A stretch of DNA of 64,000 nt from Patiria pectinifera (taxonomy: Eukaryota > Echinodermata > Asteroidea > Valvatida > Asterinidae). The notes below the pieces were generated by a model that was given only the letters and a program-made list of their open reading frames with translations, was not told where the DNA came from and did no database searches. The stretch is taken from NCBI GenBank assembly GCA_029964075.1, contig CM057149.1, positions 14,267,197 through 14,331,196 of the forward strand, written 5' to 3'. The position numbers and the translations under genes are program-made. Below, piece by piece: positions 381-63,066 of the stretch; position 1 is the stretch's first letter, and each line of letters starts with the position of its first letter.

Positions 381-514
381 CTACCATTCCATGGATCTGT
401 TGGGCACAGCATCATTGGGGTCCTCTTGAGGGACATTGCCTTGAGTAAGTGTAGACACTGAGCCATCAAAACTCTCCCGTTGCTCCACGGACTGCAAGAG
501 GTCAGTCTTAGAAT
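381..514 (-). CDS. Exon 29: polar C-terminal tail and stop (aa 1124-1167)
   Basis: Acceptor TTTTCAG|ATTCTA. It encodes a Ser/Gln/Asp-rich tail (SVEQRESFDGSVSTLTQG ... NRSMEW) ending at TAG 383-381. The stop overlaps a possible donor (GAATG|GTAGGC, phase 2), so the tail could instead continue outside the window. The whole reading frame closing here favours the stop. Confidence 0.75.
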
Positions 515-3500
515 CTGAAAAATATACAACAAAATTGGTGTTACAATATGATAAATGCATTGTAAATGGGGCCCCATTTCATAGCACTGCTTATGTTGGC
601 ATTTATGACCCCAAACAAAGTGACTTCATTTGCATAACATATGGGCGACATGCGCAACTGCTCCCTCAATGATATGTTAGAAAGGGAAAGTTGGGGAGAC
701 CTGGGACATACATTCCAACGCATTGTCGACAACCCCATAAAGTCACTAATAATGGTTTAAAGTGCCAAGCTTCATTCGAGTCTTACTAATAATTTGGTTT
801 TGGCTAGTCGTTGGGATTGCGGTCATAAATTGTTGAAAATGCTTGGGGAGTCAGGTTGGCGTAGCGGTACTTTCCTCGCCTTCCACCGCTGTGACCCGGG
901 TTCGAATCCCGCCTTGGTCAATATGTGAATTAGGTTTTTAGTCCCTACCTGATTCTGTGGGTTTTCCCCAGAATATCTCCTGGACTTTTCCTCCCACCTC
1001 TAAAACTGTAATTTCTTCTCATTGTCTTCTCTCTGAGTTGGTGTGACGTTTCCCTTGGGATGCTTTACCGACTATAATTTAACCCCAACTCCCTAGGCCT
1101 TTTTGCTAGGATGTAGCCTCAATTCTGAAAAATCCTCCAATTGGCCTCATGGAAAAATAGCATATAGCCTCAATCCTGCAAATTCCTCCGCTATTTCTTG
1201 AATATGGTCCATGGAGGGGTGACCACTGCCTGAATCCTGCAAAATCCTCCGGCTATGACTGTCAATAGGCTGAGGCAGAGGCAGTGACATCCTGGAGCAG
1301 TGCGGAGGATGTCAAGTATAATCAAGGGCTAAATTCATGCACGGCTGAGCATAAACAACACAAGGTCTGGCCCAAGACCTTGACACAGTGCGTACTTCGA
1401 AATCAGCAACCCACTTTTGCCATGTAACCTCAATCCTGCAAATTCCTCCAATTTGCAAAAAGGATTTTGGAGGATTCAGGGCGGTTAGGGATAAAGATAC
1501 AGATGACCACGGCTTTTGGAGGTTTGTATTACCTGGAGGTCTGCCCTGTCCTTCCTTGATGATCAGGAATGGCTTGCCTGCCAGGCTGCCACCGTTTGGC
1601 AGGTGGATGTTGTCCAGACAGAGGGGCAGGATCAGCTGCAGCTCGTTGGATAGGAAGCCGTCTGATACATCTGAAGGTTAGAAAATACAATTCAGCAAAA
1701 TTTCAATCTACGGATTTACTATTTCCAATGACAAATCATGTACGGAAAGTGTATTATACAAATATTGAGTAGCTCAGCGTGGAATGGGAGGAATATTATC
1801 GCAAGGTAAAATCTGGACTTTTCCATTTCACGAGGCGAAGCCGAGTGAACTGGAAAATCCAGATTTTAAAGAGCGATAATATTTCTCCAATTTCACAATT
1901 TATAGCCACTCAATATTTGTTTTCTATAACTGACATATAGATCCTTGTCATTTGATATATTTGAACTTTTATTTCAATACAAAACTGGAGGAAAATGTAT
2001 TTCTCTCTTCCAAACCACCCCTTCACGAAAATGTTTGAACCCAACGCTGTAGCGCTGGCTCTTTGGAACAATACGCGCTATGCGCAACGCTGAACGCGCA
2101 CACCAGCATGCATTTGCACGCAAATACCGCGTCATAGAACAAGAATGATCCTAATTGTTCAATAGCATTTCCCATTCCCCATGGGCAGATAGTACTTTTT
2201 GAGCCGTGGCGTGAATGGGAGCAATAACGAATGTCACACGATGTGAGTTCCACCAATCAAATGACAAGGATCTGTATCTCAATGCTTGTGATAAAATATC
2301 ACACGTAAACTCTGGTGGGACTTGAGCAAATGACCTTCTGTTTACTTTAAAGCAGACAATTTAGCACTCGACTACTAAGGCCAAAAAAAAAAAGTCTCCG
2401 GTTTTTGGTATGGAGCTTGCCCCAAAAGTGGTGCGGCAACGCGGCTTTTTTTTTTTTTTACCTGTTTTTTTTTTTTTTTTTGGCTTCAAATGTCGGCTGA
2501 TGACTGCAAATGGTGCCCGACTAAACTTAGTGCAAATATATGGGAGTCCAGAGAGGCCACATAAAGCTTATTCTCGACCATAACCCCATCTAAAAACACG
2601 TTAAAATTGTGCAGCAGCAGGATTCCAGTCAAACCAGTGAGTTTGGCGGTTTTGAGACATCATCTTGTATTGAAAAAAAAACTTTTTCATTTTGCCGACG
2701 CGCATGGCTGCGGCGACGCGCGCGCATACCAGAAACCGGAGACTCTTTTTTTTGGCCTAAGCTTATCAATGAAAGCCTGGCATCAAAAACTAGAATCATT
2801 AGGGTAAACTGGGGTAAAAACGCCCATGGGGTAAAAACGCCCACTTGACTTGTTTCCACTGCTAGTAAAAAATGACAAGATGAATTGTTCAATGGAATAT
2901 ATTTTTAATAAGTACAATGTAGTTAAAAACTAATAATAAAAAGAATTAAATTCATTAACATATTTGAAGGGTATGTAGGTGCTGTTGAAAAAAATATTTA
3001 AAAAAAAGTTTTAAAAAATGGCCGTCGAAGGTTTAGCCTGTATCGCTTAAAATTATTGTATAAAAAAAAGTATCTTATATTTTTATTACTCTTTAGTTGA
3101 TATATATTAAGAAGGGTTAATAACATAATTATAAATGATTACAATATTAAAATCTATTTTAATATTTGCTTAATAATGTTTTTTGAGTGGGCGTTTTTAC
3201 CCCAGGCAAAATCAGGGGTCTCGGGGTAAAAACGCCCAGTACTTTTCTTGATATCAAACTCTATTGCAGCCTCATTTATCTTCAAAAACCTCATTGTTAG
3301 AACTTTCTACAGCATTATATTTGTTGTATGAGTAAGTATTAGCTATAAGAGTCCCACTACATAAATATTAAACAGTCAGGCGGGGATCGGAGGGTCACCC
3401 CGCTCTGTCCAAAAAAAAAAAATTATCATACAAATTCCCCAAAAAATAAGTCGAACCCCCTGCTGTGACACCTTAACAAAAATTATACGGGTATAATGTC

Positions 3501-6500: not shown

Positions 6501-9500
6501 GTAGCATGAAACGACTGAGAATATTTCTACTCCCCCTGGATGGGATGCTAGTCCATCGCAGGTTACTCCCCAGCTAATGCCGGTACCCATTTATACTCCT
6601 GGGTGGAGAGGGGCAAGTGGGGGTGAAGTGCCTTGCCCAAGGACACAATATATGACCAGCGGCTGGATTCGAACCCCGGACCTCTGATCATGAGTCACGA
6701 ACCCTAACCACTAGGCCACACACTCCCCTAAAGATTGTAGCTACATTTTATTAATAAATACCTTGGAGAGTTGATGGCTTCTGATTGGTCGAGACTCGAT
6801 CACGTGGGGTGTATTAACGGTGATATAAAGACCGGCTTCAAAGAACGAGCAAATAAATGGCCCCTGAAGCAGCATTGATTCAGCTCCATGCAAGCCAATG
6901 ATTGGGCAAATTTACAACAGTCCTACGGCAGCTTGTAACAATACAACACTGCACATATGCGCTCAACCACCATCACGTGAAGCCTTACGCGCACGTTACA
7001 AAACAGTTACTATGGGTGCGCGCGTGAGGAAGTTTTCAAACAACATCGTACAGCAATATGGGCTTTTCACCAAAAGCTAAAATATGGCCCATGAACATGA
7101 ATAAAAAAAAAGCCAAAAATATCGTCGAAAAAAGTCACAAAATTGGAGCATTTTAACTGTTTATTTTGTTAAAAAGGTATTTATTAATGGGAATAACAGT
7201 GTGAGGATCCGGTCATCACTGCGTGATAATGACCAGGTTTGGAGGTGACCGCTGTTAATGGACCGAGACGAAAACAGCGGTCACCCCAAAGCCGGTCATT
7301 ATCACGCAGTGAAGACCGGATCCTCACACTGTTATTCCCTTATTAAAACTAACAATGATCAAGGCGTTCCTTTTCATATTTCACCCCCTGTATGTGTGAC
7401 TTTACAAACAATTTCAGTTGGGAAGACTTACCGGTACTTAGCTTCTCTCCAGGCAGTGCCAGAATGAACACTGCTAGAGGTGCCTCGTGTACCTCTCTGT
7501 GAGGTAGAGTCAGCTGGCACTTCTTGTAGTCACCGATTGTCTTGGTCTGTTGAATCGGAAAATCGGAAAACCATCATGTACAAGGAATATGTGCACAATC
7601 CCAAAGAACACTCAAGTCTTCATTCAGAGAGAGGTAGAAATGCTTACACAGCGCATAGCAAGCAATTAATGGTAGAGTATATCATTTGTAGCTATATCAA
7701 AAAAGTAACCAACCAAATTATTGTTGAAAAGCTTACTTGGTTTAGAGATGGTAATGGCTCTAAACTCCCTGTGAAATCATTCTTCTAGCATGCTTTCATT
7801 TGAAGAAAACAATAAAAGAAGGCCATTTCCAAAGATGCATCTGGTGATGCATTTTTGAAAATTTCTGTTAGTAGCTCGTTTTTAATTCGGCAAAGCCGTG
7901 AATGAGTGCGCGAAAGCATTGACATGACGCTCACGTGCGCGCAGTTGCTATTATTCGTCGATTCAGTGCGTGACATCGCATAGCTGCAATCGGTTGTATG
8001 AGAGTGTGAACCGGACGTTGATTTCGGGCGCAATTCAAAACATGACTTCACAACTCTGAGCATTCTCTGAGCTAAAATTGCATCAGGTTAGTAGTTAAAT
8101 ACCCTTCTTTAGATTTTGAGCACTTGTGTTGCTTCGCACACAAAAAATGCTTTACATCCAAATTATAGTTGAAAAGCTTACTTGGTTTAAAGATAGTAAT
8201 GGCTCTAAACTCCCTGTGAAATCATTCTTCTAGCTTGCTGTTATTTGAAGAAAACAATTAAAGAAGGCCATTTCCAAAGATGCATCTGGTGACACATTTT
8301 TTGGAAATTTCCGTTGACACGACGCACACGTATGCGCGGTTGCTATTATTCGTCGATTCAGTGCATGACATCATGCTGCAATCGGTTGTACTTGTATGAG
8401 AGTGTTAACCGGACGCTGATTTCGGGCGCAATTCAAAACATGACTCCGCAACTCTTGAATTGAAATCGAGATCCAGGATTATAGTTTTCTCGGAATATAC
8501 AGCATTCTCTGAATACCCTTCTTTAGATTTTGAGCACTTGTGTTGCTTCGAACAAAAAAAATGCACCAATGACAAATGATATACTCTACCAATTAAAGGT
8601 ACAGTCCATCATTTGTAATTTGTGCATTTTGTTAGTTTAAAGCAACAACCATGCTCAAAATCTAAAGAGGGGTGCTGAACAACTAACCTGATGAAATTTC
8701 AGCTCAGCTCCAATTGTATATTCCGAGAAAAACAACATTCTAGGATCTCGATTTCAAATCAAAAGTTGCTGAATCATGTTTTGAATTGGGCCTGAATTCA
8801 GCATTCTCGAAGAGCTGATTGCAGCTTTGCAATGTCCGCACTGAACTGTCTAATTATAGCAACCGTGCACGCATGTGCATCATGTCAATGCTTGCACGCT
8901 TTGCCGAATAAAAAAAACCACAAGAACTACTCACGGAAATTTCCAACGATGCGTCTTTAGACGCATCGTTGGAAAGGCCCTCTTTCTCGGATTTCTTCAA
9001 AATGTCAGCATGACAGAAAGAATCTCTCACAGGGAGTTTAGTCCCCTTACTATCTTTCAAGCAAGTATTTTTTCCAAAAACAATTACATCAGTTACTTTT
9101 TGGATAGCTGCAAATGATGGACTGTAGCTTTAAATCAAAGAAACAGGGAGGACTATATGCCTGCCCTAAAATATAAGTACTACAATGTAGACTATTTTCT
9201 GCTGCAAACAGATTATACTGAACCTACCAGTGTTAAAGATGAGATATATGAAATGGGTCACAAGTTACAACAAGTCCCAAGTCAACCCACAAACTATAGT
9301 CAAACATTCCTTTATTGTTCACCACCTTTTACTTGTGATCTATACTTTTGAATTTACTTGTGACCAGGGCCCAATTTCATAGCGCTGCTTAACAGCCGAC
9401 TTTGTGCTTACCGAGCCTTCATCTATTTCATGGAAACCGTTAAGCAGTAAGCACAGCAAAATCACGCTTAACCCCAGAAGAAAACTTTGCTTAAATCAAT

Positions 9501-45500: not shown

Positions 45501-48500
45501 AACAAATACAACCATGACAACCTGGGATAATGGTATAACAAATACAACCTGGGGTAATGGTATACTGGGGTAATAGTGTCTTTTATACCATACCGGTATG
45601 CTATGCCAAATCAGCTGAGAAGTAACAACTTACGTAACTTGCAATGTACATGTTTGGCTGTATTTGCTGAGCAAATTTCAGCATTTTAAATTAACCCAGA
45701 TGATAGGCCCATGTGCATGTGTCTGGTGCGCAAACCACAGAATATTGGTTGCACGTACCGGTAATGGCTACATTACAATGTACACGTACCGGTATTGTGA
45801 CCAATATTGTTTGTACATGGCATACTGTCATGAATATAAAAAAAATTAATTTAGACGTTCTACATGTGGATTTTTTTGGGGTTAACTACAAGAGATGTTA
45901 TAATTCACTGCATGTGATTGTACTCATGCATGATGTCCATGCGTCAACCATCCAAATCCTCCAACTTCAAGGAAGTCATCAGAGATTAATGGACCTGGAA
46001 TTCAATTACAGAACACTCCCATTGCCATTTCCAAATAGGCATGTTAAGTACCGGTATCGATCTACCGTAGCTGTACCGGGTACAATGTATGCGAAGTTTT
46101 TGCATCAAGCCCACAACATCAAATTAACCTGAATACTCCAGGGAATCATATAGTGATTTCTTGTGCAAAGCTAGGCCACGATCAATGCAATTCATAATTG
46201 GGTTTTATATTACATGTACCAACTGGTTCAAGTACATGCACATGTACACATGTGCATGTACGTATACACGATGTATACACATGTACATGTAACTGTACGA
46301 TCATGTTGATGAATGAGAAATATTCAGCATGAACAAATATATATATTTAATGCTGAATTTATAATTGCCATCAAGTGTAGGAATACATTAATGTATGGTC
46401 AAATGGAAATGTGGAATGGAAAAAAAAAAAAAAAAAAATGCTCAAATTAGAGCAAATCATGCAAATCTTGCTGTCTTTTGCATGATGTCCCAGTACATGT
46501 GCGTGTAAATGTTAACATCAAAACATATTCTGCACTAACATGACTACATACGTTCACCCATGTTAAAATTTGGTTGTAAGGCTTTAAGGGATTATTATTG
46601 AGTTGACATGGACCATCAGTGTTTATGATTTCTATGTTTTAAAGCATGCATCAAGTTTAAAAAAAACAAGTTTTTCTGTTGCCACTTAGTGTCATTAATT
46701 ATTAAATAAATTTCCAATGACCTAGCTTGAAGTGTATGCATCTTATAAAATATACATTTCACTAGAAACTTCATATAGTTGCTGCCTGATGATAATCCAA
46801 GGAAAGAAGGATGAATTATAGATGAGGAGGTGTTTTTTTCTGGAGTACATGTACATGGAAAAAATGTGTCTGTTTCCTGAGGGCAAAGCCTGATTTGCAC
46901 CGGTACAGGTGCCAATAATACAATGTACATGTACGGTATACTGGGCAATTCCACTGAGAAGTGCAGGGCTGAAAAGAACAACGAGCACCACAACCTCAAA
47001 AAGGTATCAAATTAATGGGGACGAGAATGTTCATTTAAAGTGGTGTACCTGTACCATTGAGATGGAATTTAGTTACAAGTGTTTTGGGTTTGTTTAGTCA
47101 AAAACCTGGTTTATTGTGCTAAAATTATGGATTTTTGGTAGTCATTTGGCACCTTGTGTTAACACGCAAAACGAGAGTGTTATTGTGAGTTTTTGTTTTG
47201 AAGAGAGAGAGAAAAGGTTCATATTCAACGTGTTCAATGCAAAAAGAGCTTTTTGGTTTGATTGTTAGTTTCTTTATATGTTTTCATCAGGGAATGTAAC
47301 GGTACAATATTTACTTGTGCTGCAATTTTCAGAAATAAATGAATTTGAAGGATTAGTACATGTACCGTACCAGACCAAAATTTGTTCAACAATCTTCCCA
47401 CTGCAACTTGAAATGATTAATACAAAGCCTAAAGGAAAGGAAACAAGGAATACAAAATTTTGTTTGAATTCTTCAATAAAGATACGCGCATCTGAAAATT
47501 GAAAATAAAGTCTAGCCATCATGACCGAGTCAACAGCCAGTGGCAAAGCATAACATCAAAATCTCCAATCTGTCTGCCTGAAGACTTTCAAATCCTCACA
47601 AAGGTCAGGCACCAGAAGCTCTCTGCACGGCGACACATGACCAGGGATAGAAAATTGCAAGACTGCGATACGTGTATGATACAAGAGCAATCAGTATTAT
47701 AGCAGCAAAAGCTTACCTGCCGTATATTATGCCCATTGCTGCCCAAAGTTGCATTCCAATGTATTGAGATGCTCTGAACAAAAACAAGAATACGAAAGCA
47801 ATATGATTACAATTTGATGCCAAACCACTGTTGATTTCAATTCATTCTTTGTTGTTATCATTTTTCAAACCAATCAACCAACTTCCACCAGTTCGTTAAT
47901 CAGAGAATCCAGAATGTTATTTCTTGTCAATACAAGAAGTACACGTATGCATTAGTATTAATTGTTCTGTTTTTTTTTTTGGTTTTTTTTAATCTTTCTG
48001 ATTAAAAGCTCATGTATTGTTAATGAAATTCGGTTGCATTTTTTATTCAGATGGTCTTTGATAACAATTTCTTTGTAGCATCCTTCAACTTTTTAATCAA
48101 CTTCCACCAAATACTCAATTTGTCAGAAATATCAAAGCCAGTTTTGTTAGTTAAAGAAAAAAAAGGAGGACCATGTTATAGTCATTAGCAATGAAAATTT
48201 GATAATAAGAGCAGGGATAAAAACCACTATACCTGACGGATTCCCAGCACATCTGCAAAGGTTGTAATTGAGACATTTGACATTTGATTTTCATTATAAA
48301 TGGTACTTGTGAAAAAGCCAGTTTTCAGCCAGCCTCAAAGCAAACACTCAATGTTTTACAGCTGTTTTTCCAGTGTCTAGGGCTCTTTAATCTGTAATGT
48401 TTAGATATATACCAGTAGCTGGGAGAGGCGACACTAGGCAGGGATTGTTTTTTGGGTAAACATGACGCTCTTCTGACTTAGTTGGCATACATTGTACGAC

Positions 48501-51500: not shown

Positions 51501-54500
51501 CTCGCCGCCTCGCCTCGCAGATCGCGCCCGACAGATCGCGCCGCCGCGAGCGCGCGATCGCGGATCTCGATCTCGCCTCGCTGCCTCGCGGATCTCGCCT
51601 CCCCTTTCGCCTTCTCGATCTCGCTTACGCATTTACGCATCGCGGATCTCGCCTCGCCTCCTGCTTTATCTTTTTTTCTCTCTGCATAGATGCAGCATGC
51701 AATAAAATATAAGAAAGAAATGCGCTAAGACAACACCAGAAGGCTTGCGAGGCGAAGAAATATGTGGAAATGTCGTGGAAATGCGCATGCAGCACAAGAA
51801 TCCGCGAGGCGCGCGATCGCGAGGCGGATCCGCGAGGCGAGATCGCGCGAGGCCGGATCCGCGAGGCGGCGATCCGGCAGCGGCGAATCCGCTGGCGCGA
51901 GGCGCGAGATCAGCGAGCGGAGGCGACGCGAGATCCGCGCGACCGTGATCCCGCCAAGCGAATGGCGCGGCGCGAACATGGCAATATTTAAACAACATTG
52001 GTACTTGAAGTACGAGTACATGTAGAAAGAAGAATTTAGCAATTTATTAAAATATGCAAGGATAAAATTCCTTCTTCATGGCATACTTGTTATAATGAAA
52101 TGAATGACAAACAAAGTACCTGTCCTTCACTAACAGTGACTTCTGCTGGGGAGAAGCCAAGTTTGGTCAGACCTATACGAACGATGTCTGTGGTGCCTGT
52201 ATTTCCTGAGGACGAAAAGGAAGCAATTAGAACAAACAAGGGGTCCATTAATAGTCCAGAATCTTGCACACCCCTAGGGGTTAATAAATTGGATTGCCGA
52301 AAGTTTTGGCTGATTTGGCTGGTTGGGAACACCTATGTTTGCGACAGAGGTGATGATTGTCACACCGATTGTCAAAGAAATGGATTTTGGGTCTTGAGCA
52401 CAGTCTATCGGTCTTTATAACACATCGCCCGCAGATTCTGTGTCTTGATTGGCTGAGAGCGAGTCACATGATACTTTCTATCTTTCTGTGCACGGCCAAA
52501 AGTACTATACCCGTAGCAACCAAAGTACTATACCATTAGCAACCAAAGTACTATTTCCACGGCGCGGTATTTGTGTGCAAATGCATGCTGGTGTGCACGT
52601 TGCGCGTAGCGCATTTTGTTCCAAAGAAAGCGCGCCACAGAGTTGGGTTCAAATATTTCGCGAAGGGGAGGTTTGAAAGAGAGAAATACATTTTCCTCCA
52701 ATTTTGTATTGAAATTGAAGTTTATTTCAACTGTGTTCAGATTTAAATAATTTAAAATATTAAAACCAAGCAGAATCTGTGGGTGAAGTGTTATAATTAT
52801 AAAACAAATATTGAATGCTTTATCTTGTGGTGAAGTAAAACTAGCCTCCCTCGGTGATCCATAGAGCATTCTATTTTCCCTCAGCTTCGCCTCGGCTTCG
52901 CCTCGGCTTCGCCTCAGGAAAATAGAATGTCCATGGATCACCTCGGGAGGCTAGTTTTACTACACCACTCGAAGCATTCAATATTTGTATAATGTACATG
53001 TGCAGTACGTACATGTACATTGTATCCACTTGTCTACACAAATGTTGACAATATCATTAGTGCACAATAAACATACCGTAGCATTCCACGGTGATCAATT
53101 GAGGAGTATTAAACATCAATATTTTCATTTGCATTATTATCATTCATCGTTGTTCATGGTTATTTCATTTAAAATGACACATGGCAGCCAGCAATTTAAT
53201 AGAGGCCATCTCACAAAAGTAAATAACGTGCATAATTTTCTTTATAAATGAAGATTATATTATACAAATATTGAATGCTTCGAGTGGTGTAGTAAAACTA
53301 GCCTCCCGAGGTGATCCATGGACATTCTATTTTCCAGAGGCGAAGCCGAGGGAAAATAGAATGGTCCATGGATCACCGAGGGAGGCTAGTTTTACTTCAC
53401 CACGAGATAAAGCATTCAATATTTGTTTTATAACACTTCACCCACAGATTCTGCTTGATTTTAATATTTTAAATTATTTAAATCTGAACACTGTTGAAAA
53501 AAACTTCAATTCCAATACAAAGTTGGTGGAAAATGTATTTCTCTCTTCCAAACTACCCCTTCATGAAATGTTTGAAGTTGAACCCAAGTCTGCGGCGCGC
53601 TCTCTTTGGAACAATACGCGCTACGCGCAACGCGCACACCAGCATCCATTTGCACACAAATACCGCGTCGTGGAAATAGTACCGTACTTTGGTTGCTAAC
53701 ATATAGTACTTTGGTTGCTACGGGTATAGTACTTTTGGCCATGCACAGAAAGATAGTAAAATTAGAAAGTAACATGTGACTCGCTCTCGGCCAATCAAAA
53801 CACAGAATCTGTGGGTGAGGTGTTATAAAACTAATTACATTTTGTACAAGTCTTAATGCTAGTTTTACTGGACCAGGTGTTTCAGGTAAAGCAGTCAACA
53901 TTTAAAGAGCTGATTGAAATCCAATGGAAATATACACTTTTTCCTTCCATTAAAAAAAAAAAAAAAAAATCCCATAAAGAGTTGTTAACACCCAAATCTG
54001 AAGTGCCTCACCATGCATACATAAAAAAATTCTAGGCACAATTTATCATGTGACCAACTATATTCGCATACAACTTCCCCTTTAAAATTTTGTTGCAATG
54101 CTATTGCTGTGTTTCAGTAATTATTTTGAGTGGAGACAATGGATAAAAAACAAGCAACAAATAAATAAAAGAAACAAAAAAGCAATGTTTCATAAAATAA
54201 CATGCAGTTTGTGTTAAAGGGAATATACAACATTTGCAAACATTGAAAAATAAAACTACCAAGTTTTTACGAAACACCTTACTAGGATGTTGGTAAATGA
54301 CAGTCTAAAGCATCCTGTAAAATTATGGCACCTGGTGTGAAGTCATTTTCAAGAAGATGATATTTTTGTATACATTTCCAGCGGTGGTCGGCCGACCACC
54401 GTTGGAAAAACCTAACTATTTTGCAACTACTGCTCCAAATTAACCATCTTTTATTCAGTTCAAATTTTGTTTGCTATTGGTTACATATTCATGAACGGGT

Positions 54501-54988
54501 GTAGGCCAGCTAGACTTGTTCCCTTACCTTACAGTTTTCCGGCATCTGGAAATTGATCCATTTTATCTTTGGTGGAGTCAGGGAACCAGACTACTTGAAC
54601 ATTTTTGGGGTTTTTTTGTTTTTCAAGCATTTTCGAACAAAAAACTTCAAACATGTCAGCGTAACAAAATTTGATCTTTTATGCTAACCCCCTAAATAGT
54701 TCATTTCTGAAAATTACAGCAAAAGCCAATGGTGTACATTCCCTTTCAACGAGGTTTGCCTTTCAGTTTCATGCAACAACAGAAGAAACTACATAGTAAA
54801 ATCTTGAAAAAAATAACAAACAAAAAAACAAAAAGCAAGGAAAAAGAGAACTAAAACCACCAGGTTTTTGTACCTTTCTTGGGAGGCTGTGACTTAGAAG
54901 TCCAAGTGCTGCTACTGTTTTTCTTAATCTTGTGGGGGTGGCTTGGCATCAGCGTTGCGGCAGTATCTTTGGACGCACCAGTCCCCAT
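381..54988 (-). CDS. 29-exon gene: seven cupredoxin-like modules, chitobiase-C-like module, two FN3 modules (1,167 aa)
   Basis: Joined coding sequence of 29 exons (listed separately), 3,504 nt from ATG at 54988 to TAG at 383-381. All junctions are GT-AG and keep frame, which is strong evidence for one intact gene. Order: basic N-terminus starting MGTGASK (1-39); cupredoxin-like modules at about 45-141, 142-239, 240-348, 349-460, 464-554, 558-660 and 663-762; chitobiase/hexosaminidase C-terminal-like module 783-850; acidic linker 862-882; FN3-like modules 898-984 and 985-1077; polar tail to 1167. Cupredoxin signs are a G-[DN]-x-[VI]-x-W-x-W strand, an HNI[RI]Q-like histidine strand, and PG[VL]F[YH]Y before each module's last strand. 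The Cys-His-Met copper loop is absent throughout. No signal peptide or membrane segment is seen, so an intracellular or membrane-tethered structural role is inferred. Function is unknown and I do not recognise a named orthologue. Confidence 0.88.
565..740. mobile_element. Partial MITE-like fragment (GGGCCCATTTCATAGC type)
   Basis: It contains GGGGCCCCATTTCATAGCA, close to the terminus of the inverted-repeat element at 9367-10150. Only one end is recognisable. Confidence 0.3.
845..1076 (+). mobile_element. tRNA-derived SINE, copy 1
   Basis: Pol III box A (TGGCGTAGCGG, 857-867) and box B (GGTTCGAATCC, 899-909) are followed by a shared body with GGGTTTTCCCCAGAATAT. A second copy is at 20808. 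The tail is truncated. Confidence 0.75.
1081..1490. mobile_element. MITE with CCCTAACC-type ends and AATCCTCC motifs, copy 1
   Basis: The ends AACCCCAACTCCCTAGGCC and GGCGGTTAGGG form a weak inverted repeat. The interior repeats AATCCTGCAAAATCCTCC. Further copies at 15501-16590 and 35176-35566 define the family. It ends about 40 bp from exon 28. Confidence 0.6.
1533..1670 (-). CDS. Exon 28: C-terminal region (aa 1078-1124)
   Basis: Acceptor CCTTCAG|ATGTAT, donor CTCCAG|GTAATA. It encodes DGFLSNELQLILPLCLDNIH, LPNGG and KPFLIIKEGQGRPP. I recognise no domain; it may be a further beta-strand extension of FN3 module 2. It lies about 5.8 kb downstream of exon 27, across the most repeat-rich intron. 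Confidence 0.82.
1754..2275. mobile_element. Foldback element with GAGGCGAAGCCGAG apex
   Basis: Palindrome 1754-1927 (tips TATACAAATATTGAG) with apex at 1832-1845, followed by a flanking arm carrying the inverted motif GATCCTTGTCATTTGA (about 1950 and 2260). The internal sequence CTCTTCCAAACCACCCCTTC is shared with elements at 38741, 52416 and 53261. Confidence 0.65.
2376..2760. mobile_element. MITE with TAGGCCAAAA termini, copy 1
   Basis: Terminal inverted repeats AAGGCCAAAAAAA ... AAAGTCTCCGG and CCGGAGACTC ... TTTGGCCTAA. An inverted, truncated copy is at 35701-36035. The interior has poly(T) tracts and GCGGCGACGCG motifs. Confidence 0.7.
2801..5485. mobile_element. 2.7-kb inverted-repeat element (AGGGTAAACTGGGGTAAAAA ends)
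   Basis: The left terminus at 2801 is matched by its reverse complement ending at 5485. Extra inverted copies of GGGGTAAAAACGCCC occur at 2830, 3187-3240 and 5250-5290, forming internal hairpins. The AT-rich interior contains another repeat (3808-4201). No transposase frame is recognisable. Confidence 0.65.
3808..4201. repeat. Interspersed repeat, shared with 20018-20526
   Basis: It shares GCTGATTAATTAGGCAAG, CCTAGATTTTGACCAATCAG and the end GTGGATAACGGGTGATACTC with the second copy inside the intron between exons 19 and 20. It contains CCAAT-like ACCAATCA motifs and GC-rich stretches. Confidence 0.6.
5596..6245. mobile_element. Retroposon debris with TTTA repeat and poly(A) tracts
   Basis: It opens with TTTATTTATTTATTTATT (a likely reverse-oriented LINE tail) and includes A tracts at about 5998-6016 and 6225-6245. 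No coding motif is recognisable. Confidence 0.35.
6425..6727 (-). mobile_element. tRNA-derived SINE (reverse orientation)
   Basis: On the minus strand it starts GGGGAGTGTGTGGCCTAGTGG (box A) with box B GGTTCGAATCC, followed by TGTCCTTGGGCAAGGCACTT and GGAGTATAAATGGGTACC. This is a body type widespread in marine invertebrates. Confidence 0.8.
7186..7343. repeat. Long perfect-like hairpin
   Basis: GGGAATAACAGTGTGAGGAT is mirrored by ATCCTCACACTGTTATTCCC. The arms continue inward through CCGGTCAT and TCACTGCGTGATAATGACC. It is a foldback MITE or part of one, and ends about 90 bp from exon 27. Confidence 0.6.
7432..7546 (-). CDS. Exon 27: second half of FN3-like module 2 (aa 1040-1078)
   Basis: Acceptor TTCAACAG|ACCAAG, donor TACCG|GTAAGT. 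It encodes TIGDYKKCQLTLPHREVHEA and PLAVFILALPGEKLST, resembling the last two FN3 strands. Phase 0 in, phase 1 out. Confidence 0.83.
7667..9132. mobile_element. Cluster of three TTAA MITE copies (family B)
   Basis: Two same-sense copies (about 7667-8150 and 8155-8597) are followed by an inverted copy (8597-9132). Shared features are ends of the type TTAAAG[CG]TAcAGTCCATCA, the GACTAAACTCCCTGTGA block, a small TGCGTC/GACGCA hairpin and CTCGGAATATACAGC. Confidence 0.7.
9367..10150. mobile_element. Inverted-repeat element carrying a second nested inverted-repeat element
   Basis: The outer ends GGGCCCAATTTCATAGCGCT and GCTATGAAATTGGGCCC bracket an inner element (9611-10124) with ends GGGCCCGTGACCATTCAG and CTGAATGGTCACGGTCCC. 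The outer interior is rich in TGCTTA/TAAGCA motifs. Confidence 0.7.
10208..10372 (-). CDS. Exon 26: first half of FN3-like module 2 (aa 985-1039)
   Basis: Acceptor CCCACAG|AGAGTG, donor GTTGAG|GTAGGC, phase 0 to 0. It encodes CEVTDQEDTINLVWTALDYL, then EPTKYVVYVDGRETPVE. The core Trp and the Y-x-V-Y-x-D-G strand fit FN3. Cys988 and Cys1001 could pair. Confidence 0.86.
10570..10775 (+). mobile_element. SINE-like fragment
   Basis: Box B-like GGGTTCGAGTCC, then TGTCTTTGGGCAAGACACTT and AGTAAATGGGTACCTG, match the body of the SINE at 6425-6727 in the opposite orientation. The tRNA head is degraded. Confidence 0.55.
10946..11098 (-). CDS. Exon 25: second half of FN3-like module 1 (aa 934-984)
   Basis: Acceptor CAAACAG|CTCTAC, donor AAACTG|GTACTA, phase 0 to 0. 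It encodes LYVNGICYHNDLPPTCHSIT and VDGLTGNQTYVISIIAQPRD then QESNKL, the [VI]-x-GL-x-x-x-T-x-Y-x(3)-[IV]-x-A signature of FN3. Confidence 0.88.
11571..12210. mobile_element. Inverted-repeat element with ACGACGCGTCGC motifs
   Basis: The ends CACCCGATTTCA and TGAAATCGGGTG are inverted. Both subterminal zones hold repeated ACGACGCGTCG/CGACGTG motifs on an otherwise AT-rich interior. Confidence 0.65.
12267..12398 (-). CDS. Exon 24: first half of FN3-like module 1 (aa 890-933)
   Basis: Acceptor CATTTAG|ACCAAC, donor TATCAG|GTATAG, phase 0 to 0. It encodes PAISGWLHNSSDNSIEIYWE, LPSVPYRGQLKSYQ. The P-x-I start, I-x-I-x-W strand and closing Y fit fibronectin type III. Confidence 0.86.
13767..13940. 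repeat. Hairpin element with GAGGCGAAGCCGAG apex (family F)
   Basis: The arms TATACAAATATAACATGG ... TATTGGAAGTTGACAAACTAG are mirrored around the apex at 13846-13859. A diverged copy in opposite order is at 58568-58720. Confidence 0.7.
13943..14473. mobile_element. Inverted-repeat element with CTATACCTCATACATAT ends (family E)
   Basis: The ends TACTATACCTCATACATATT and CATATGTATGAGGTATAGTA are inverted. An internal hairpin at 14285-14350 has arms GCGCATGCGTAGTAGACTGT. An inverted copy lies at 58030-58567. Confidence 0.7.
14496..14864. mobile_element. MITE with TTAGGCCAAAA termini, subfamily 2, copy 1
   Basis: It shares AACATTTTGGGGGAAAAAAG, the GCAATAGAGGGCGCTGTTGG block and GTCTCTGGTCAGACC ends with the copy at 24420-24797. 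Its right end is 10 nt from the 5' splice site of exon 23. Confidence 0.7.
14875..14986 (-). CDS. Exon 23: acidic linker (aa 852-889)
   Basis: Acceptor CATGCAG|ACGATT, donor GGACCT|GTAAGT. It encodes RFWVLEGNVGHSSEDDDAIS then TDDFEAEMQNNGPGP, a strongly acidic and probably flexible hinge between the chitobiase-like and FN3 modules. A MITE terminus begins 10 nt inside the intron (14864). Confidence 0.84.
15501..16590. mobile_element. MITE of the CCCTAACC family, copy 2, with insertion
   Basis: The flanks match copies 1 and 3, but 15740-16405 is extra sequence bounded by TTAACCCTTTC and GAAAGGGATAA, an inverted pair suggesting a second transposon. Within it, about 48 bp containing TTTAGTCGACCAGGAAACCA is tandemly duplicated at 15803-15895. 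The right end holds GGATTTTGGA repeats. Confidence 0.6.
16641..16747 (-). CDS. Exon 22: second half of chitobiase C-terminal-like module (aa 817-852)
   Basis: Acceptor AATGCAG|GTTTAC, donor TCCAA|GTAGGT. It encodes VYKSEKGICLRRPGLHIIRA and ITISNGLLPSPVYTS, matching the Y-x(n)-G-x-[HY]-x-I-[KR]-A and S-x-V pattern of the fold. Reading through the donor would hit TAG at once. Splicing to exon 23 restores the frame (Lys852). Confidence 0.87.
16842..17345. mobile_element. TTAA MITE, family B copy 4
   Basis: The ends TAAAGGTAGAGTATTTCATT and AAATGACATACTCTACCTTA are inverted. The interior matches the 7667-9132 cluster (CTCAAAATCTAAGGAAGGGT). Confidence 0.65.
17762..17890. repeat. Hairpin beside exon 21
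   Basis: The arms GTTATCGCGCTCGCGCTCGT ... CTGTGTCCCACAT are mirrored around a TACCACTCGGCCGAAAT loop. It ends 17 nt from the exon 21 donor and so can be transcribed in the intron. Confidence 0.65.
17908..18068 (-). CDS. Exon 21: first half of chitobiase C-terminal-like module (aa 763-816)
   Basis: Acceptor ATATTTCAG|AGTCTC, donor ACCAGG|GTATGT. It encodes VERFHTVELQSTCTSQTASI then LYTLDGSIPELHGSATR. YTLDGS-x-P is the hallmark of the chitobiase/beta-hexosaminidase C-terminal fold (CHB_HEX_C type), which is continued in frame by exon 22. A long hairpin ends 17 nt into the next intron. Confidence 0.87.
18127..19400. mobile_element. 1.3-kb inverted-repeat element with a nested element
   Basis: The ends CAGTCACACATTTTACGG and CCATAAATGTGTGACTG bracket subterminal GGAGCTACG motifs and many internal CCGTNGTNA-like words. 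The inner element 18717-19361 has ends GCGGCCCTATTTTGGTAAAA and its reverse complement. Confidence 0.7.
19468..19705 (-). CDS. Exon 20: main body of cupredoxin 7 (aa 684-763)
   Basis: Largest coding exon (238 nt), acceptor TTTACAG|GGTCAG, donor GATGATG|GTACGT. It encodes GQSVLWSWKGSQFETHNIVH (His699 as ligand-position His), FTFEEPGTFYETSEGAPGC and VGVVHVLDD. It is a nearly complete plastocyanin-like profile except for the absent Cys-His-Met loop. Confidence 0.92.
20018..20526. repeat. Interspersed repeat, second copy, with internal 86-bp duplication
   Basis: It matches 3808-4201. Inside, a block around CACGGCGCGCGGCGCT (20200 and 20286) is duplicated in tandem, followed by CACTGCATTCGAATTGACCA. 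Confidence 0.6.
20669..20785 (-). CDS. Exon 19: end of cupredoxin 6, start of cupredoxin 7 (aa 645-683)
   Basis: Acceptor CTGACAG|TATGAG, donor CACAGG|GTAAGT, phase 0 to 0. It encodes TVLSSVVVSNPSGSFTVMVS then KGFKPPAVSIHR, joining the last strand of one module to the GF-x-P start of the next. Confidence 0.87.
20808..21092 (+). mobile_element. tRNA-derived SINE, copy 2 (full length)
   Basis: Box A at 20820-20830, box B at 20862-20872, body as in copy 1 and an ATA-repeat tail at 21072-21091. It sits 22 nt upstream (gene sense) of exon 19's acceptor. Confidence 0.78.
21738..21822 (-). CDS. Exon 18: cupredoxin 6, PGVYHYY strand (aa 616-644)
   Basis: Acceptor TATCCAG|GCGCTG, donor TTTATG|GTAAGA. 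It encodes RCCALRFSNPGVYHYYSKAF and then NKTDKFM. It repeats the PG[VL][FY] strand seen in modules 2, 3, 4 and 7. Confidence 0.86.
21865..22203. mobile_element. Inverted-repeat element with a hammerhead-like core
   Basis: The ends CGGTTTGCGGTAACACCATG and its reverse complement define a 339-bp unit. On the minus strand 22061-22031 reads CTGACGA, a stem of TGACTAG/CTAGTC, then GAAAC, the ordered core of a hammerhead ribozyme, as found in Penelope-like and related retroelements. Confidence 0.55.
22395..22654. mobile_element. Small MITE (AGGGC[TC]TGTCTCA ends)
   Basis: AGGGCTTGTCTCAGTTCAT is mirrored by TTTCTTTCCAGGAC ... TGAGACAGGCCCT. Internal GACAAGTT/AACTTGTC pairs occur. Confidence 0.6.
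22718..23151. mobile_element. MITE with ATATGTGACCTGTTCTGTCA ends
   Basis: The left terminus at 22718 and its reverse complement ending at 23151 extend about 45 bp with few mismatches (GGCATAAGG/CCTTATC region). No coding content. Confidence 0.7.
23269..24347 (+). pseudogene. LINE reverse-transcriptase C-terminal fragment, split by a MITE
   Basis: Frame pieces LFVKLHSLTLSDINKLQTGI and FMFKFTNNLLP precede the insertion at 23409-23942. HHYHTRSHSNLYIPFKRTSL and RFYGPSLWNSI follow it. These are typical of the ORF2 C-terminus of CR1/L2-group non-LTR elements. A poly(T) tract near 23390-23400 also shifts frame. It is a dead copy. Confidence 0.75.
23409..23942. mobile_element. TTAA MITE family A, copy 1
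   Basis: TTAA at 23409-23412 and 23939-23942 flank inverted ends AAGGGAATATACA and TGTATTTTCCCTT. The interior matches 42136-42672 closely. This is the signature of piggyBac-type non-autonomous elements. Confidence 0.8.
24420..24797. mobile_element. MITE with TTAGGCCAAAA termini, subfamily 2, copy 2
   Basis: The ends TAAGGCCAAAA ... GTCGGTCTCTGGTCAG and CTGACCAGAGACCGA ... TTTTGGCCTAA are inverted. It is opposite in orientation to copy 1. It ends 28 nt from the exon 17 donor. Confidence 0.75.
24826..25001 (-). CDS. Exon 17: cupredoxin 6, first part (aa 558-616)
   Basis: Acceptor ACATGTAG|ATCCAT, donor CCAAG|GTCAGG. It encodes HQVLVAKNHLQPDPVLAQTY, WVWPVLRKHGLTQL and VFELQTYTQDVVTP. His591 aligns with the first ligand. 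A MITE terminus lies only 28 nt into the following intron (at 24797). Confidence 0.88.
25628..26172. mobile_element. Inverted-repeat element (CTCGTACCCCCGCCCTGC ends)
   Basis: Left arm TACCCCCGCCCTGCAAACAG ... CGCTGGGATAC near 25636-25672 is repeated in reverse at 26127-26165. The interior is unrecognised. Confidence 0.65.
26290..26341 (-). CDS. Exon 16: last strand of cupredoxin 5 (aa 540-557)
   Basis: 52-nt exon, acceptor TTTTTTCAG|TGTTGC, donor GCCCAG|GTAAGA. It encodes SVALPKLYGAVVAVSQAQ, the closing strand with no Cys, His or Met ligand. Confidence 0.83.
26992..27104 (-). CDS. Exon 15: middle of cupredoxin 5 (aa 503-540)
   Basis: Acceptor AATGTAG|GTATCT, donor CAGAG|GTAAGT. It encodes VSRHGHPTKEGFCSGLP, then FVRQFNAGAVVYYQ, the strand before the ligand loop position. 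Phase 0 in, phase 2 out. Confidence 0.87.
27178..28091. mobile_element. 0.9-kb DNA transposon relic (ACCGTAATTTTCGGAATATA ends)
   Basis: Both ends carry ACCGTAATTTTCGGAATATA then AGCCGC in inverted orientation, with repeated GGCTTATA words inside each end. No intact transposase frame. The type of terminus is common among animal MITEs. Confidence 0.7.
28800..29075 (+). repeat. Imperfect short tandem repeats (CAATGTACAACAGCATAA type)
   Basis: Repeated CAATGCA/CAATGTACAACAGCATAA words create an open frame with Q/C/T-rich peptide. It is best read as minisatellite-like low complexity, not a gene. Confidence 0.5.
29374..29924. mobile_element. TTAA MITE, family B copy 5
   Basis: The ends TTAATGCTACAGTCCATCAT and ATGATGGACTATTCCTTTAA are inverted. 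It contains the family hairpin and the CTCGGAATATACAG block. It lies about 180 bp downstream of exon 14 in gene sense. Confidence 0.75.
30104..30220 (-). CDS. Exon 14: first half of cupredoxin 5 (aa 464-502)
   Basis: Acceptor TTGACAG|AATCATT, donor ATTCAG|GTAAGT, phase 0 to 0. It encodes ITVSDTGFEPKVLRVHPGDR, WWVWEN and QQHNIIQ. His498 aligns with the first copper ligand. This is the clearest cupredoxin half-domain in the protein. Confidence 0.9.
30297..30815. mobile_element. TTAA MITE, family B copy 6
   Basis: TTAA-flanked ends AAGCTATAGTCGATCATTTG and ACAAATGATGGACTATATCT. Hairpin TGCGTCTTCAGACGCA in the middle. Confidence 0.78.
31207..31840. mobile_element. Inverted-repeat element (GGTGTCACGGTCTCACTTCT ends)
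   Basis: The left terminus at 31207 and its reverse complement ending at 31840 match over about 40 bp including GCGTGCTAGCTTCTCCG. It lies about 170 bp beyond exon 13 in gene sense. Confidence 0.75.
32012..32169 (-). CDS. Exon 13: second half of cupredoxin 4 (aa 411-463)
   Basis: Acceptor CTCCCTAG|ATTTTT, donor CAGAAG|GTAATA. It encodes LATVQLSTPGVFHYRVSD and then CCSVIVNPGQK, the PGVF-x-Y strand and closing strand of the module. A Cys-Cys pair lies at 453-454. Phase 0 out. Confidence 0.88.
32438..32492 (-). CDS. Exon 12: cupredoxin 4 insert (aa 393-411)
   Basis: 55-nt exon, acceptor GTTACAG|GTGGAT, donor CAATA|GTAAGT. It encodes VDSCVASDNKTVAEVDCN with two cysteines that could form a module-specific pair. 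Phase 0 in, phase 1 out. Confidence 0.8.
32781..32863 (-). CDS. Exon 11: Trp strand of cupredoxin 4 (aa 365-392)
   Basis: Acceptor ATTTTAG|ATCTG, donor ATGCAG|GTAAAA. It encodes LSVINSGDRIWWNWDVDNIQ then DSFSVMQ. This is the only module whose strand lacks the copper-ligand His (DSFSVMQ in place of HNIxQ). Confidence 0.87.
33036..33728. mobile_element. Tc1/mariner-like non-autonomous element
   Basis: The inverted ends TACAGCGTGTGTCAATAAAA and TTTTTATTGACACACGCTGT are flanked by TA. GTGTCAATAA-type termini and TA targets suit Tc1/mariner. No catalytic frame survives. Confidence 0.65.
33977..34450 (+). repeat. Tandem duplication, about 234-bp period
   Basis: AGGTTACCCATTCCTACTGG recurs at about 34031 and 34265 with the surrounding GTCACGTGGCCGGTCTTAAA and CACTTTTCCAGTGTC in the same order, giving two adjacent near-identical units. 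Confidence 0.75.
34822..34979 (-). CDS. Exon 10: end of cupredoxin 3, start of cupredoxin 4 (aa 312-365)
   Basis: Acceptor ATGCCTAG|CCGAGC, donor CCCAG|GTGTGT. It encodes HIFHEPGVFYYCDNNYDDN and LGVVVVKP. Cys330 sits where blue-copper proteins have their Cys, but no His or Met follows at ligand spacing. It then opens module 4 with HHVEVTAEGFYP. Confidence 0.9.
35176..35566. mobile_element. MITE of the CCCTAACC family, copy 3 (inverted)
   Basis: It matches copy 1 in reverse orientation: TAACCCTAACCACCCTGAAT at the left and GCCTAGGGAGTTACGGTTAA at the right. Confidence 0.62.
35701..36035. mobile_element. MITE with TAGGCCAAAA termini, truncated copy 2
   Basis: Reverse copy of 2376-2760, sharing GTCTCCGGTTTCTGGTATG and GACTCCCATATATTTGCACT. 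The right terminus is missing. Confidence 0.65.
36111..36217 (-). CDS. Exon 9: histidine strand of cupredoxin 3 (aa 277-312)
   Basis: Acceptor CACCAAAG|TGCAAG (short pyrimidine tract), donor CCTAG|GTGAGT. It encodes CKKKHRIQQMEVPTGHAV and then FPRPVKGGFSSDAP. His281 aligns with the first copper ligand. As in modules 1, 4 and 5, a phase-0 intron lies at or next to this strand. Confidence 0.83.
36502..37502. mobile_element. 1-kb inverted-repeat element containing a 48-bp tandem array
   Basis: The ends GGGGCAGATTGCAATAAC and GTTATTGCAATCCGCCCC are inverted. Its right half is filled by the array at 37085-37450. GTCTTAA/TTAAGAC words recur in both arms. Confidence 0.65.
37085..37450 (+). repeat. 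48-bp minisatellite, about 7.5 copies
   Basis: The unit contains GCTTTGTTATTATTATTATT then TTTGTCAGATACTGTGCGCC and is nearly identical in all copies. Because 48 is a multiple of 3 it creates long meaningless open frames. Confidence 0.92.
37552..38087. mobile_element. TTAA MITE, family B copy 7
   Basis: Flanked by TTAA on both sides. Ends AAGCTATAGTCCATCATTTG and ACAAATGATGGACTAGATCT. It lies about 190 bp downstream of exon 8 in gene sense. Confidence 0.8.
38278..38461 (-). CDS. Exon 8: end of cupredoxin 2 and start of cupredoxin 3 (aa 215-276)
   Basis: Acceptor TTGCAG|ACATCC, donor TTCAAG|GTCAGT. It encodes HPGLFYFQTEGPEDGEMQLC then VVHV (last strand of module 2, no Cys-His-Met loop), followed by RRFNPRLLTVSQGDRVWWLW, the canonical opening of module 3. 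Confidence 0.9.
38741..39307. mobile_element. Foldback element family C, copy (apex 39215-39228)
   Basis: It carries the block TATAACACCTCACCCACAGA, GTAGCAACCAAAGTACTAT repeats, TTTCAACTGTGTTCAGATTT and a terminal hairpin whose arms (GATGGACCATTCTATTTTCC) meet at CTCGGCTTCGCCTC. Confidence 0.75.
39720..40422. mobile_element. MITE with AAGGGCCTGTCACA-type ends
   Basis: TTAAGGCCCTGTCACACTG and TATAATGTGACAGGCCCTTT are inverted, with subterminal TATATGCACTCTCA/TGAGAGTGCATATA. The interior is GC-rich with AGCG words. Confidence 0.7.
40548..40592 (-). CDS. Exon 7: short linker exon in cupredoxin 2 (aa 200-215)
   Basis: 45-nt exon, acceptor CATAG|GACC, donor TTTCC|GTGAGT. It encodes TSAPMQSGSYKHEF and is too short for most ORF finders. 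It is supported by exact phase 2 to phase 2 joining and by the expected ...Y-x-H-x-F strand before the PGLFYF motif of exon 8. Confidence 0.82.
40768..41742. mobile_element. CAGGGTGAGT-ended element interrupted by a SINE
   Basis: The left end CAGGGTGAGTAAAA and the right end GACTCACCCTG (41729-41739) are inverted. The interior matches 48541-49106. The SINE at 41379-41726 separates the right terminus. Confidence 0.7.
41379..41726 (-). mobile_element. tRNA-derived SINE (reverse orientation)
   Basis: Minus-strand head GATGGCATGGGTGGCTTGTG with box B GGTTCGAATCC, a GC-rich body (CTCCGGGCCCTCCGG) and an ATTATTATTT-type tail at the low-coordinate end. Confidence 0.72.
41804..41952 (-). CDS. Exon 6: core of cupredoxin 2 (aa 151-200)
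   Basis: Acceptor TGCAG|CTGACAG, donor GGAGG|GTGAGTA. It encodes RFVPSLLHIEQGNSVKWVWN and then RAHSVREV, where His180 aligns with the first copper ligand. It also carries CPKHCG. Phase 0 in, phase 2 out. Confidence 0.88.
42136..42672. mobile_element. TTAA MITE family A, copy 2
   Basis: Near-identical to 23409-23942. TTAA at both borders, ends AAGGGAATATACATCATTTG and GCAAATGTTGTATTTTCCC. It contains hairpin TTTTTCCAACGCTAATCGGC. Confidence 0.82.
43006..43078 (-). repeat. tRNA-like sequence (probable SINE head or tRNA pseudogene)
   Basis: On the minus strand GGGCTGG at the start pairs with CCAGTCC at the end as a 7-bp acceptor stem, with AGTTGGTAGAGCG and GGTTCAAACCC boxes. The anticodon arm is mismatched, so a functional tRNA is doubtful. 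Confidence 0.5.
43246..43318 (-). CDS. Exon 5: end of cupredoxin 1, start of cupredoxin 2 (aa 126-150)
   Basis: Acceptor TTTGCAG|TGAAGG, donor GCAGAG|GTAAGA. With the split Ser126 it reads SEGYEANSGKVLHVTV, the position of the plastocyanin Cys-His-Met loop plus last strand. Cys and Met are missing. The exon then opens module 2 with SRHYVMAE. Confidence 0.85.
43426..43623. mobile_element. 198-bp MITE (GGACCGATCCAGTAAGC ends)
   Basis: GGACCGATCCAGTAAGCCCC and GTGCTTACTGGATCGGTCC are inverted. The interior has a duplicated GTGCACGCATGTCGGAC. It lies about 110 bp upstream (gene sense) of exon 5. Confidence 0.72.
44186..44304 (-). CDS. Exon 4: middle of cupredoxin 1 (aa 87-126)
   Basis: Acceptor CCCCCAG|GTTGTATTC, donor GTCAG|GTTGGT. 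It begins VVFDGQAV, so the joined sequence reads HNIRQ-VVFDG, like the HN[IV]VFD of plastocyanins, and ends GEFKFV. The acceptor touches a 27-bp minisatellite (44305-45575) whose unit resembles this same junction. Confidence 0.87.
44305..45575 (-). repeat. 27-bp minisatellite, roughly 45 copies, abutting the exon 4 acceptor
   Basis: In gene sense the unit reads CCATTACCCCAG then GTTGTATTTGTTATA. The true junction is CCATTCCCCCAG|GTTGTATTC, so the unit looks like a copy of the intron-exon border. Some units vary (AA/GG/GA before CCTGG) or are longer. The repeat has no stop in any of the three gene-sense frames and produces frames of up to 339 codons. Confidence 0.93.
45576..47716. other. Intron 3, no recognised element
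   Basis: AT-rich intron sequence with many TACATGTA and ACCGGTA palindromes and an A tract at about 46420. I see no exon, transposon ends or conserved frame here. Confidence 0.5.
47717..47773 (-). CDS. Exon 3: histidine strand of cupredoxin 1 (aa 68-86)
   Basis: 57-nt exon, acceptor TGTTCAG|AGC, donor CGGCAG|GTAAGC, phase 0 to 0. It encodes SISIHWNATLGSNGHNIRQ, the classic Trp strand followed by the first copper-ligand His (His82) in GHNIRQ. Only this frame continues the domain from exon 2 into exon 4. Confidence 0.85.
47774..48540. other. Intron 2, 3' part, with an unused 20-nt exon-like segment
   Basis: Mostly unremarkable AT-rich intron. At 48252-48233 (minus) TTTGCAG/ATGTGCT...CGTCAG/GTATAG looks like a microexon, but including it destroys the frame. 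Confidence 0.45.
48541..49106. mobile_element. CAGGGTGAGT-ended element, intact copy
   Basis: The ends CAAGGTGAGTAAAAAAAA and TTTTTTTGACTCACCCTGTA are inverted. Long subterminal inverted repeats include TTTGTAGCACCAAACATAAT. Confidence 0.72.
49846..50226. mobile_element. MITE with TTAGGCCGAGTAAAA ends
   Basis: TTAGGCCGAGTAAAAAAA ... GTTTCTCGTCC and GGACGAGAAAC ... TTTTTTACTTCGCCTTAA are inverted. Related in style to the TAGGCCAAAA elements. Confidence 0.65.
51375..51995. repeat. Extremely CpG-rich foldback of GCGGATCTCGCCTCG words
   Basis: 51375-51660 repeats CGCGGATCTCGCCTCG in one sense and 51730-51960 repeats its reverse complement, with an AT-rich spacer. This contrasts sharply with AT-rich flanks. 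It produces Arg/Ala/Ser-rich open frames on both strands that are composition artefacts. Confidence 0.8.
52120..52205 (-). CDS. Exon 2: first strands of cupredoxin 1 (aa 40-67)
   Basis: Acceptor CCTCAG|GAAAT, donor GACAG|GTACTT. It completes Gly39 and encodes the opening strands, with VRIGLTKLGFSPAEVTVSEG matching the GF-x-P-x-x-[VL]-x-V-x-x-G start of a cupredoxin. It ends in phase 0, which fixes exon 3 as its partner. Confidence 0.85.
52416..52992. mobile_element. Foldback element family C, forward copy
   Basis: Same layout as 38741-39307. The hairpin apex is expanded to three CTCGGCTTCGC units (52881-52915). Confidence 0.75.
53261..53829. mobile_element. Foldback element family C, reverse copy
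   Basis: Inverted relative to 52416-52992 and only about 270 bp away. Apex GAGGCGAAGCCGAG at 53337-53350. Confidence 0.75.
54214..54749. mobile_element. TTAA MITE family A, diverged copy 3
   Basis: TTAAAGGGAATATACAACAT at the left and GGTGTACATTCCCTTTCAA at the right. The interior is inverted with respect to copies 1 and 2 and more diverged. Confidence 0.65.
54874..54988 (-). CDS. Exon 1: start codon and basic N-terminus (aa 1-39)
   Basis: The ATG at 54988-54986 sits in ACACCATGG, a strong eukaryotic start context, and an in-frame TAG lies 51 nt upstream at 55042-55040. This start is therefore preferred and 54989-55039 is read as 5' UTR. The peptide begins MGTGASK, fitting the N-myristoylation pattern (Gly2, small residue at 6, Lys7), and continues with a Ser/Lys-rich segment (HPHKIKKN). 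There is no hydrophobic signal peptide. It ends AAAG|GTACAA in phase 1. Alternatively the real start lies in an unseen exon and the CTAG at 55040 is a splice acceptor. Confidence 0.7.
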
Positions 54989-63057: not shown

Positions 63058-63066
63058 AACATAATT

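Follow-up and report, generated by a model that had tools for sequence, protein, structure and literature searches.

A predicted 29-exon gene of Patiria pectinifera for an array of seven cupredoxin-like modules that looks like an undescribed scaffold protein

Background

What does a protein do that joins seven plastocyanin-like modules in a row, carries a chitobiase C-terminal (CHB) module and FN3 sequence behind them, and starts with no apparent signal peptide? This question is raised by a gene predicted on the minus strand of a 64,000-nt stretch of DNA from the sea star Patiria pectinifera (the window; positions are counted from its first nucleotide). Most known animal proteins with the cupredoxin fold act outside the cell, as enzymes, carriers, or ephrin ligands, mitochondrial oxidase subunit 2 being an exception. 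In the literature searched (titles and the starts of abstracts), no protein with the order cupredoxin, CHB, FN3 has been named, and unnamed orthologues may well exist in databases. When the pattern of module 5, one of the seven, was searched in sequences of prokaryotes and viruses, 51 matches were found in genome_contigs and three in viral_contigs, and none is confirmed as a relative. The protein looks like an undescribed scaffold.

Structure of the gene

The predicted gene runs from 54988 to 381 on the minus strand. As shown in Table 1, it is a chain of 29 exons, separated by 28 GT-AG introns, and it forms one open frame of 1,145 codons plus stop with no internal stop codon. The original prediction of 29 exons with GT-AG borders, agreeing phases, and an open frame holds in the rebuilt chain, which has the same start, stop, and exon number. 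Its length of 1,167 codons plus stop was not reproduced, the rebuilt frame being 22 codons different. Downstream of exon 29, AATAAA is found at 74 and ATTAAA at 78, 34, and 22; such motifs are unspecific in AT-rich DNA.

Table 1. Exons of the predicted gene, with the part of the protein encoded by each
Exon	Position	Strand	Content and remarks
1	54874..54988	-	Start codon, MGTGASK N-terminus, basic linker; ACCATGG context, in-frame TAG upstream
2	52120..52205	-	Cupredoxin module 1, first strands
3	47717..47773	-	Module 1, first ligand-histidine loop (GHNI); acceptor 2.7, donor 5.2; picked by resemblance to module 7
4	44186..44304	-	Module 1; alternative in-frame acceptor 18 nt downstream
5	43246..43318	-	End of module 1, start of module 2
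6	41804..41952	-	Module 2
7	40548..40592	-	Module 2
8	38278..38461	-	End of module 2, start of module 3
9	36111..36217	-	Module 3; in-frame alternative acceptors, e.g., 36190
10	34822..34979	-	End of module 3, start of module 4
11	32781..32863	-	Module 4
12	32438..32492	-	Loop of module 4; phase-compatible candidate, among the least certain exons
13	32012..32169	-	Module 4
14	30104..30220	-	First half of module 5; within the best Cupredoxin_1 stretch, residues 460-498
15	26992..27104	-	Module 5; alternative acceptor 27077
16	26290..26341	-	End of module 5
17	24826..25001	-	Module 6
18	24681..24699	-	Module 6; 19-nt micro-exon, uncertain
19	20669..20785	-	End of module 6, start of module 7
20	19468..19705	-	Most of module 7; plastocyanin match in PDB, E 0.0014 (module 7)
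21	17908..18068	-	CHB module, YTLDGS motif
22	16641..16747	-	Remainder of CHB module; CHB_HEX_C_1 28.5 bits with exon 22 included, cut-off 22
23	14875..14986	-	Acidic linker
24	12267..12398	-	FN3 module 1; fn3 25.5 bits for the isolated module, cut-off 25
25	10946..11098	-	FN3 module 1; fibronectin FN3 in PDB, E 1.2e-4
26	10208..10372	-	Candidate FN3 module 2; single PDB match KIAA0343, E 0.27
27	7432..7546	-	Candidate FN3 module 2
28	1533..1670	-	C-terminal region
29	381..514	-	C-terminus and stop

Identity of the modules

The family to which the repeated modules belong is indicated by several kinds of profile search. Against the whole model, the NCBIfam plastocyanin profile (TIGR02656, an equivalog) reaches 5.2e-15 over four stretches (55.7 bits, under the cut-off of 87.85), and that of halocyanin 4.7e-13, also under its cut-off. 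In Pfam, both Cupredoxin_1 (1.9e-10, 41.1 bits, cut-off 27) and Copper-bind (3e-9, 37.6 bits, cut-off 21.2) match the whole protein over their cut-offs. Taken singly, two of the seven modules (1 and 5) have a cupredoxin match in Pfam, both under the cut-offs, and the other five (2, 3, 4, 6, and 7) have none. Module 7 alone finds plastocyanin in PDB (Table 1), and a profile of all seven modules finds PDB plastocyanins at 8.6e-6. In the latter search cupredoxin-fold copper proteins are the best 39 of 48 matches and 44 of the 48 overall, nine of them at E <=0.001. The hhalign probability for a segment of plastocyanin 1m9w is 95.7 percent. When each module was scored against a profile built from the remaining six, it exceeded every shuffle for which a score was reported (between 461 and 498 of the 500), scores that are partly circular because some exons had been selected by module homology. 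The margin is narrow for module 6 (9.9 vs 8.1 bits for the shuffles), which is the most degenerate of the seven. A fold prediction covered exon 20 alone and gave a mean pLDDT of 42.4, too low to be informative about the fold.

Two other assignments of these modules were rejected. Three antibody light chains occur in the PDB search with the seven-module profile, only at E 0.48 or worse, so an Ig nature is not supported by the profiles. No Ephrin match was found in Pfam with the whole protein or the single modules, and the ephrin reading was discarded.

The modules that follow the array differ in how clearly they are recognised. CHB_HEX_C_1 passes its cut-off both with the isolated CHB module (Table 1) and with the whole protein (24.0 bits, 3.7e-5), and the module has no match in PDB. 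FN3 module 1 matches fn3 narrowly over the cut-off when isolated, vs 21.5 bits (2.8e-4) in the whole protein, which is under it, and its PDB match is to a fibronectin FN3 module (Table 1). Fn3_assoc matches the whole protein at 1.9e-4, under its cut-off. FN3 module 2 has no fn3 match in Pfam and one weak match in PDB, and it shows no significant similarity to FN3 module 1 outside a common six-residue overlap. The original prediction had named seven cupredoxin rather than Ig modules, a chitobiase C-terminal module, and two FN3 modules, in this order. The sequence profiles agree with the cupredoxin array, the CHB module, and the order. The first FN3 module also stands, and the second is better called a candidate.

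Cellular location

The start codon is the first in-frame ATG and has the Kozak context ACCATGG. An in-frame TAG lies 51 nt upstream (55042-55040), with no in-frame ATG between. The N-terminus is hydrophilic and consists of MGTGASK followed by a lysine-rich linker; a PROSITE-type N-myristoylation pattern matches at residue 1. The 1,145-aa model shows no evident signal peptide or transmembrane segment, and its highest 19-residue hydropathy is 1.27. The number of cysteines per cupredoxin module varies from 0 to 5 between modules. Because of the Kozak start, the upstream stop, MGTGASK, the low hydropathy, and the uneven cysteines, a cytosolic, lipid-anchored location is favoured. The predicted protein looks like an intracellular one, probably attached to a membrane there, an assignment that an unseen upstream exon providing a signal peptide could reverse.

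Such an exon is what the main alternative supposes: the true 5' end would lie further upstream, and the product would be a secreted or cell-surface binding protein whose modules work in the extracellular space, like those of ephrins or fibronectin. The CHB, FN3, and cupredoxin modules of known proteins are mostly extracellular, and the model contains seven NxS/T sites. Ephrins are an extracellular example of the cupredoxin fold (PMC6485061). The first in-frame ATG in its Kozak context, the stop upstream of it, the hydrophilic N-terminus, and the unequal cysteine counts all speak against export, and we regard a secreted protein as possible but doubtful.

Copper ligands

In the alignment to plastocyanin, His39 is kept in six of the seven modules. 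Cys83 is found in none of them (a cysteine of module 3 lies one position off the ligand column), His86 only in module 6, where the alignment is uncertain, and Met91 only in module 2. Thus the full type-1 set of His, Cys, His, and Met is present in 0 of the 7 modules, and by this alignment the predicted array is one in which the copper-site ligands are lost.

The histidines that are kept have a possible meaning of their own. Each of modules 2-6 has a histidine within its first three residues, and these, together with the first ligand histidine of the HNI/HSV loop, might form non-canonical copper or zinc sites in a metal-binding protein for metal storage or sensing. Such a role is improbable, as the Cys, His, and Met ligands are missing from nearly all modules and retention of the loop histidine may have a structural reason. 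A copper-free array with a scaffold or binding function remains the reading that we prefer.

Origin of the array

Expansion by module duplication, as originally proposed, is supported by the homology of the modules and by their common intron positions. When the introns are placed on the aligned modules, five pairs agree in exact column and phase, vs 0.52 expected (p about 0.001); the coincidence is weaker with slack, at 0.022 for one column and 0.047 for two. A phase-0 intron directly after the HNI-type loop is common to modules 1, 4, and 5 (three pairs), and modules 1 and 5 also share a phase-2 intron. Modules 5 and 6 have another phase-0 intron in common where each begins. Since most introns lie off the module borders, simple exon shuffling is not the explanation, and since other introns differ between modules, the duplications look old. 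We infer that the cupredoxin array arose by old internal duplications accompanied by loss of the copper sites.

Reconstruction of the exon chain

The gene finder was a simple one, which used human codon usage and splice-site weights. With only the ATG at 54988 and the stop at 381 fixed and without homology anchors, it predicted a protein of 980 aa from 24 exons (score 143.9, exon penalty 9). At other penalties, the exon number ranged from 19 to 40. Seventeen of the 24 exons are unchanged in the final chain, four have one border changed, and three are absent. Of 20 dinucleotide shuffles, 3 produced a chain, the best of them scoring -2.0. As a further control, 90 trials were run on the plus strand and on two non-biological strands; 11 of them produced a chain, with a top score of 7.1. 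Note that the contrast with these controls is rough, as most of them yield no chain because the fixed end exon is unreachable.

The chain was completed with anchored codons (6, then 10) and barred stretches, followed by manual choices guided by module homology and phase. More than one in-frame acceptor is available for several exons; in exons 9 and 15, the acceptor used was chosen for its fit to the modules and scores slightly lower than an alternative. The chain is weak at three acceptors (exons 5, 9, and 15), at three donors (exons 1, 7, and 25), and in exons 12 and 18. From an early draft to the model with the added exons, the scores rose from 37.4 to 41.1 bits for Cupredoxin_1, from 29.7 to 37.6 bits for Copper-bind, and from 17.5 to 24.0 bits for CHB_HEX_C_1; this rise is supportive but not independent, because some of the added exons were picked by their resemblance to the modules.

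For exon 3, the stretch 49587-49537 (long form 49624-49537) was considered first and gave way to the exon in Table 1, which has better splice scores and the match to module 7. Other proposed exons had no domain fit and were barred or removed (49185-49101, 41736-41676, 41600-41422, 11519-11430, 10606-10505, 15164-15151, 51891-51737, 10133-10033, and 9743-9605).

Weak splice sites, a 19-nt exon, and a chain that is partly hand-picked are also what a pseudogene, or an exon chain that arose by chance, could present. Such an origin is very improbable in view of 29 exons, 1,145 stop-free codons, domains recognised at the level of profiles, and the far lower scores of the shuffle and other-strand controls. 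That the locus holds a real protein-coding gene of about 55 kb and 29 exons, with its domains and apart from any mechanism, is almost certain.

Repeats and other elements in the window

A minisatellite of 27-bp units (44297-45564, about 34 to 47 copies) extends beyond exon 4's acceptor and takes in 8 bases of this exon. In the stretch inspected, most units have a CAG/GTTGTATT sequence resembling exon 4's own 3' splice site, which gives many decoy acceptors. Two further tandem repeats are a 48-bp unit at 37084-37442 (7.5 copies, 99% matches), in which several frames are open, and an intronic 233-bp unit at 33980-34445 (two copies, 94% matches). An intronic tRNA-like stretch on the minus strand (43004-43077; Rfam, 38.1 bits) is not called by ARAGORN and is probably a tRNA-derived SINE. 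On the plus strand, the open stretches at 23056-24324 presumably resemble the end of a LINE reverse-transcriptase gene; the two ORFs there have no Pfam match at E 0.1. A 157-aa open stretch at 28738-29211 (+) contains 19-bp tandem repeats, and its sole Pfam match, HPF1, is far under the cut-off. Nine inverted pairs are found in 55-64 kb, among them one at 62268-63059 with 97-nt arms that are 100% complementary and 598 nt apart. These pairs are perhaps fold-back transposable elements.

Proposed function

The function proposed here is that of a scaffold or binding protein. The predicted protein of about 1,145 aa would consist of MGTGASK and a basic linker, seven cupredoxin-fold modules, the CHB module, the firmly assigned FN3 module 1, perhaps a second FN3 module, and a short tail. 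It would be synthesized without a signal peptide, N-myristoylated, and held at a membrane by the lipid and the basic residues. Its beta-sandwich modules would form an elongated rod in the cytosol and bind partner proteins. Neither electron transport nor substrate oxidation would be carried out by the protein. An enzyme of the diverged multicopper oxidase kind is scarcely credible and was rejected on Pfam profiles and missing ligands: the tandem cupredoxin modules are near in number to the six of ceruloplasmin-type oxidases, which occur also in a coral and other non-chordate animals (PMC3600357, PMC4890752), but no Cu-oxidase family is among the Pfam matches of the whole protein up to E 10 and a complete type-1 site is absent.

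Taken as a whole, with its gene, domains, and mechanism, the cytosolic, lipid-anchored beta-sandwich scaffold is our best explanation, and we consider it about equally probable to be right or wrong. More tentatively, the seven copper-free cupredoxin modules with their CHB and FN3 companions, anchored by myristoyl within the cell, might represent a new class of animal scaffold, of the membrane-cytoskeleton or the cilium, in which a redox fold is reused and the kept histidines are perhaps new metal sites. If the array is indeed cytosolic and has lost its copper sites, the cupredoxin fold has been taken over in animal cells for a structural or binding role. The gene is defined and open to testing in laboratory invertebrates.

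Comparison with known proteins

The modules are most readily compared with plastocyanin and halocyanin. They share the strand pattern F.P...V..G..V.W, the HNI loop, and the PG.F.Y strand, and the profile matches are significant. The known proteins are monodomain, whereas here seven modules are linked, the Cys, His, and Met copper ligands are lost, CHB and FN3 modules are added, and the gene has 29 exons. The model is also under the NCBIfam equivalog and subfamily cut-offs.

DZANK1 is an animal protein in which a CHB-type module occurs inside the cell, as would be the case for the predicted protein. It differs in its zinc ribbons and ankyrin repeats, and it is not known to contain cupredoxins. 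A literature search found no paper that treats DZANK1 together with chitobiase.

Tandem cupredoxin-fold domains are also present in the ceruloplasmin-type six-domain multicopper proteins. One source includes among them factor V, which is without conserved copper ligands, and mentions intracellular isoforms of ceruloplasmin (PMC3600357), an exception to the mostly extracellular location of animal cupredoxin-fold proteins; a coral member appears in another (PMC4890752). Unlike these proteins, the one predicted here has seven modules, no Cu-oxidase match in Pfam, no signal peptide seen, and CHB and FN3 modules after the array. In the ephrin receptor-binding domain, as presented in PMC6485061, the cupredoxin fold has lost its copper and turned into a binding module, which is a single extracellular domain. 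Ascidian tuphoxin and mollusc haemocyanin are given in PMC9395347 as animal proteins with cupredoxin-like domains that have no copper ligands. Their domains are joined to tyrosinase-type copper proteins and form no long array. With ephrins, factor V, ascidian tuphoxin, and mollusc haemocyanin, the loss of copper in animal cupredoxin domains has precedents.
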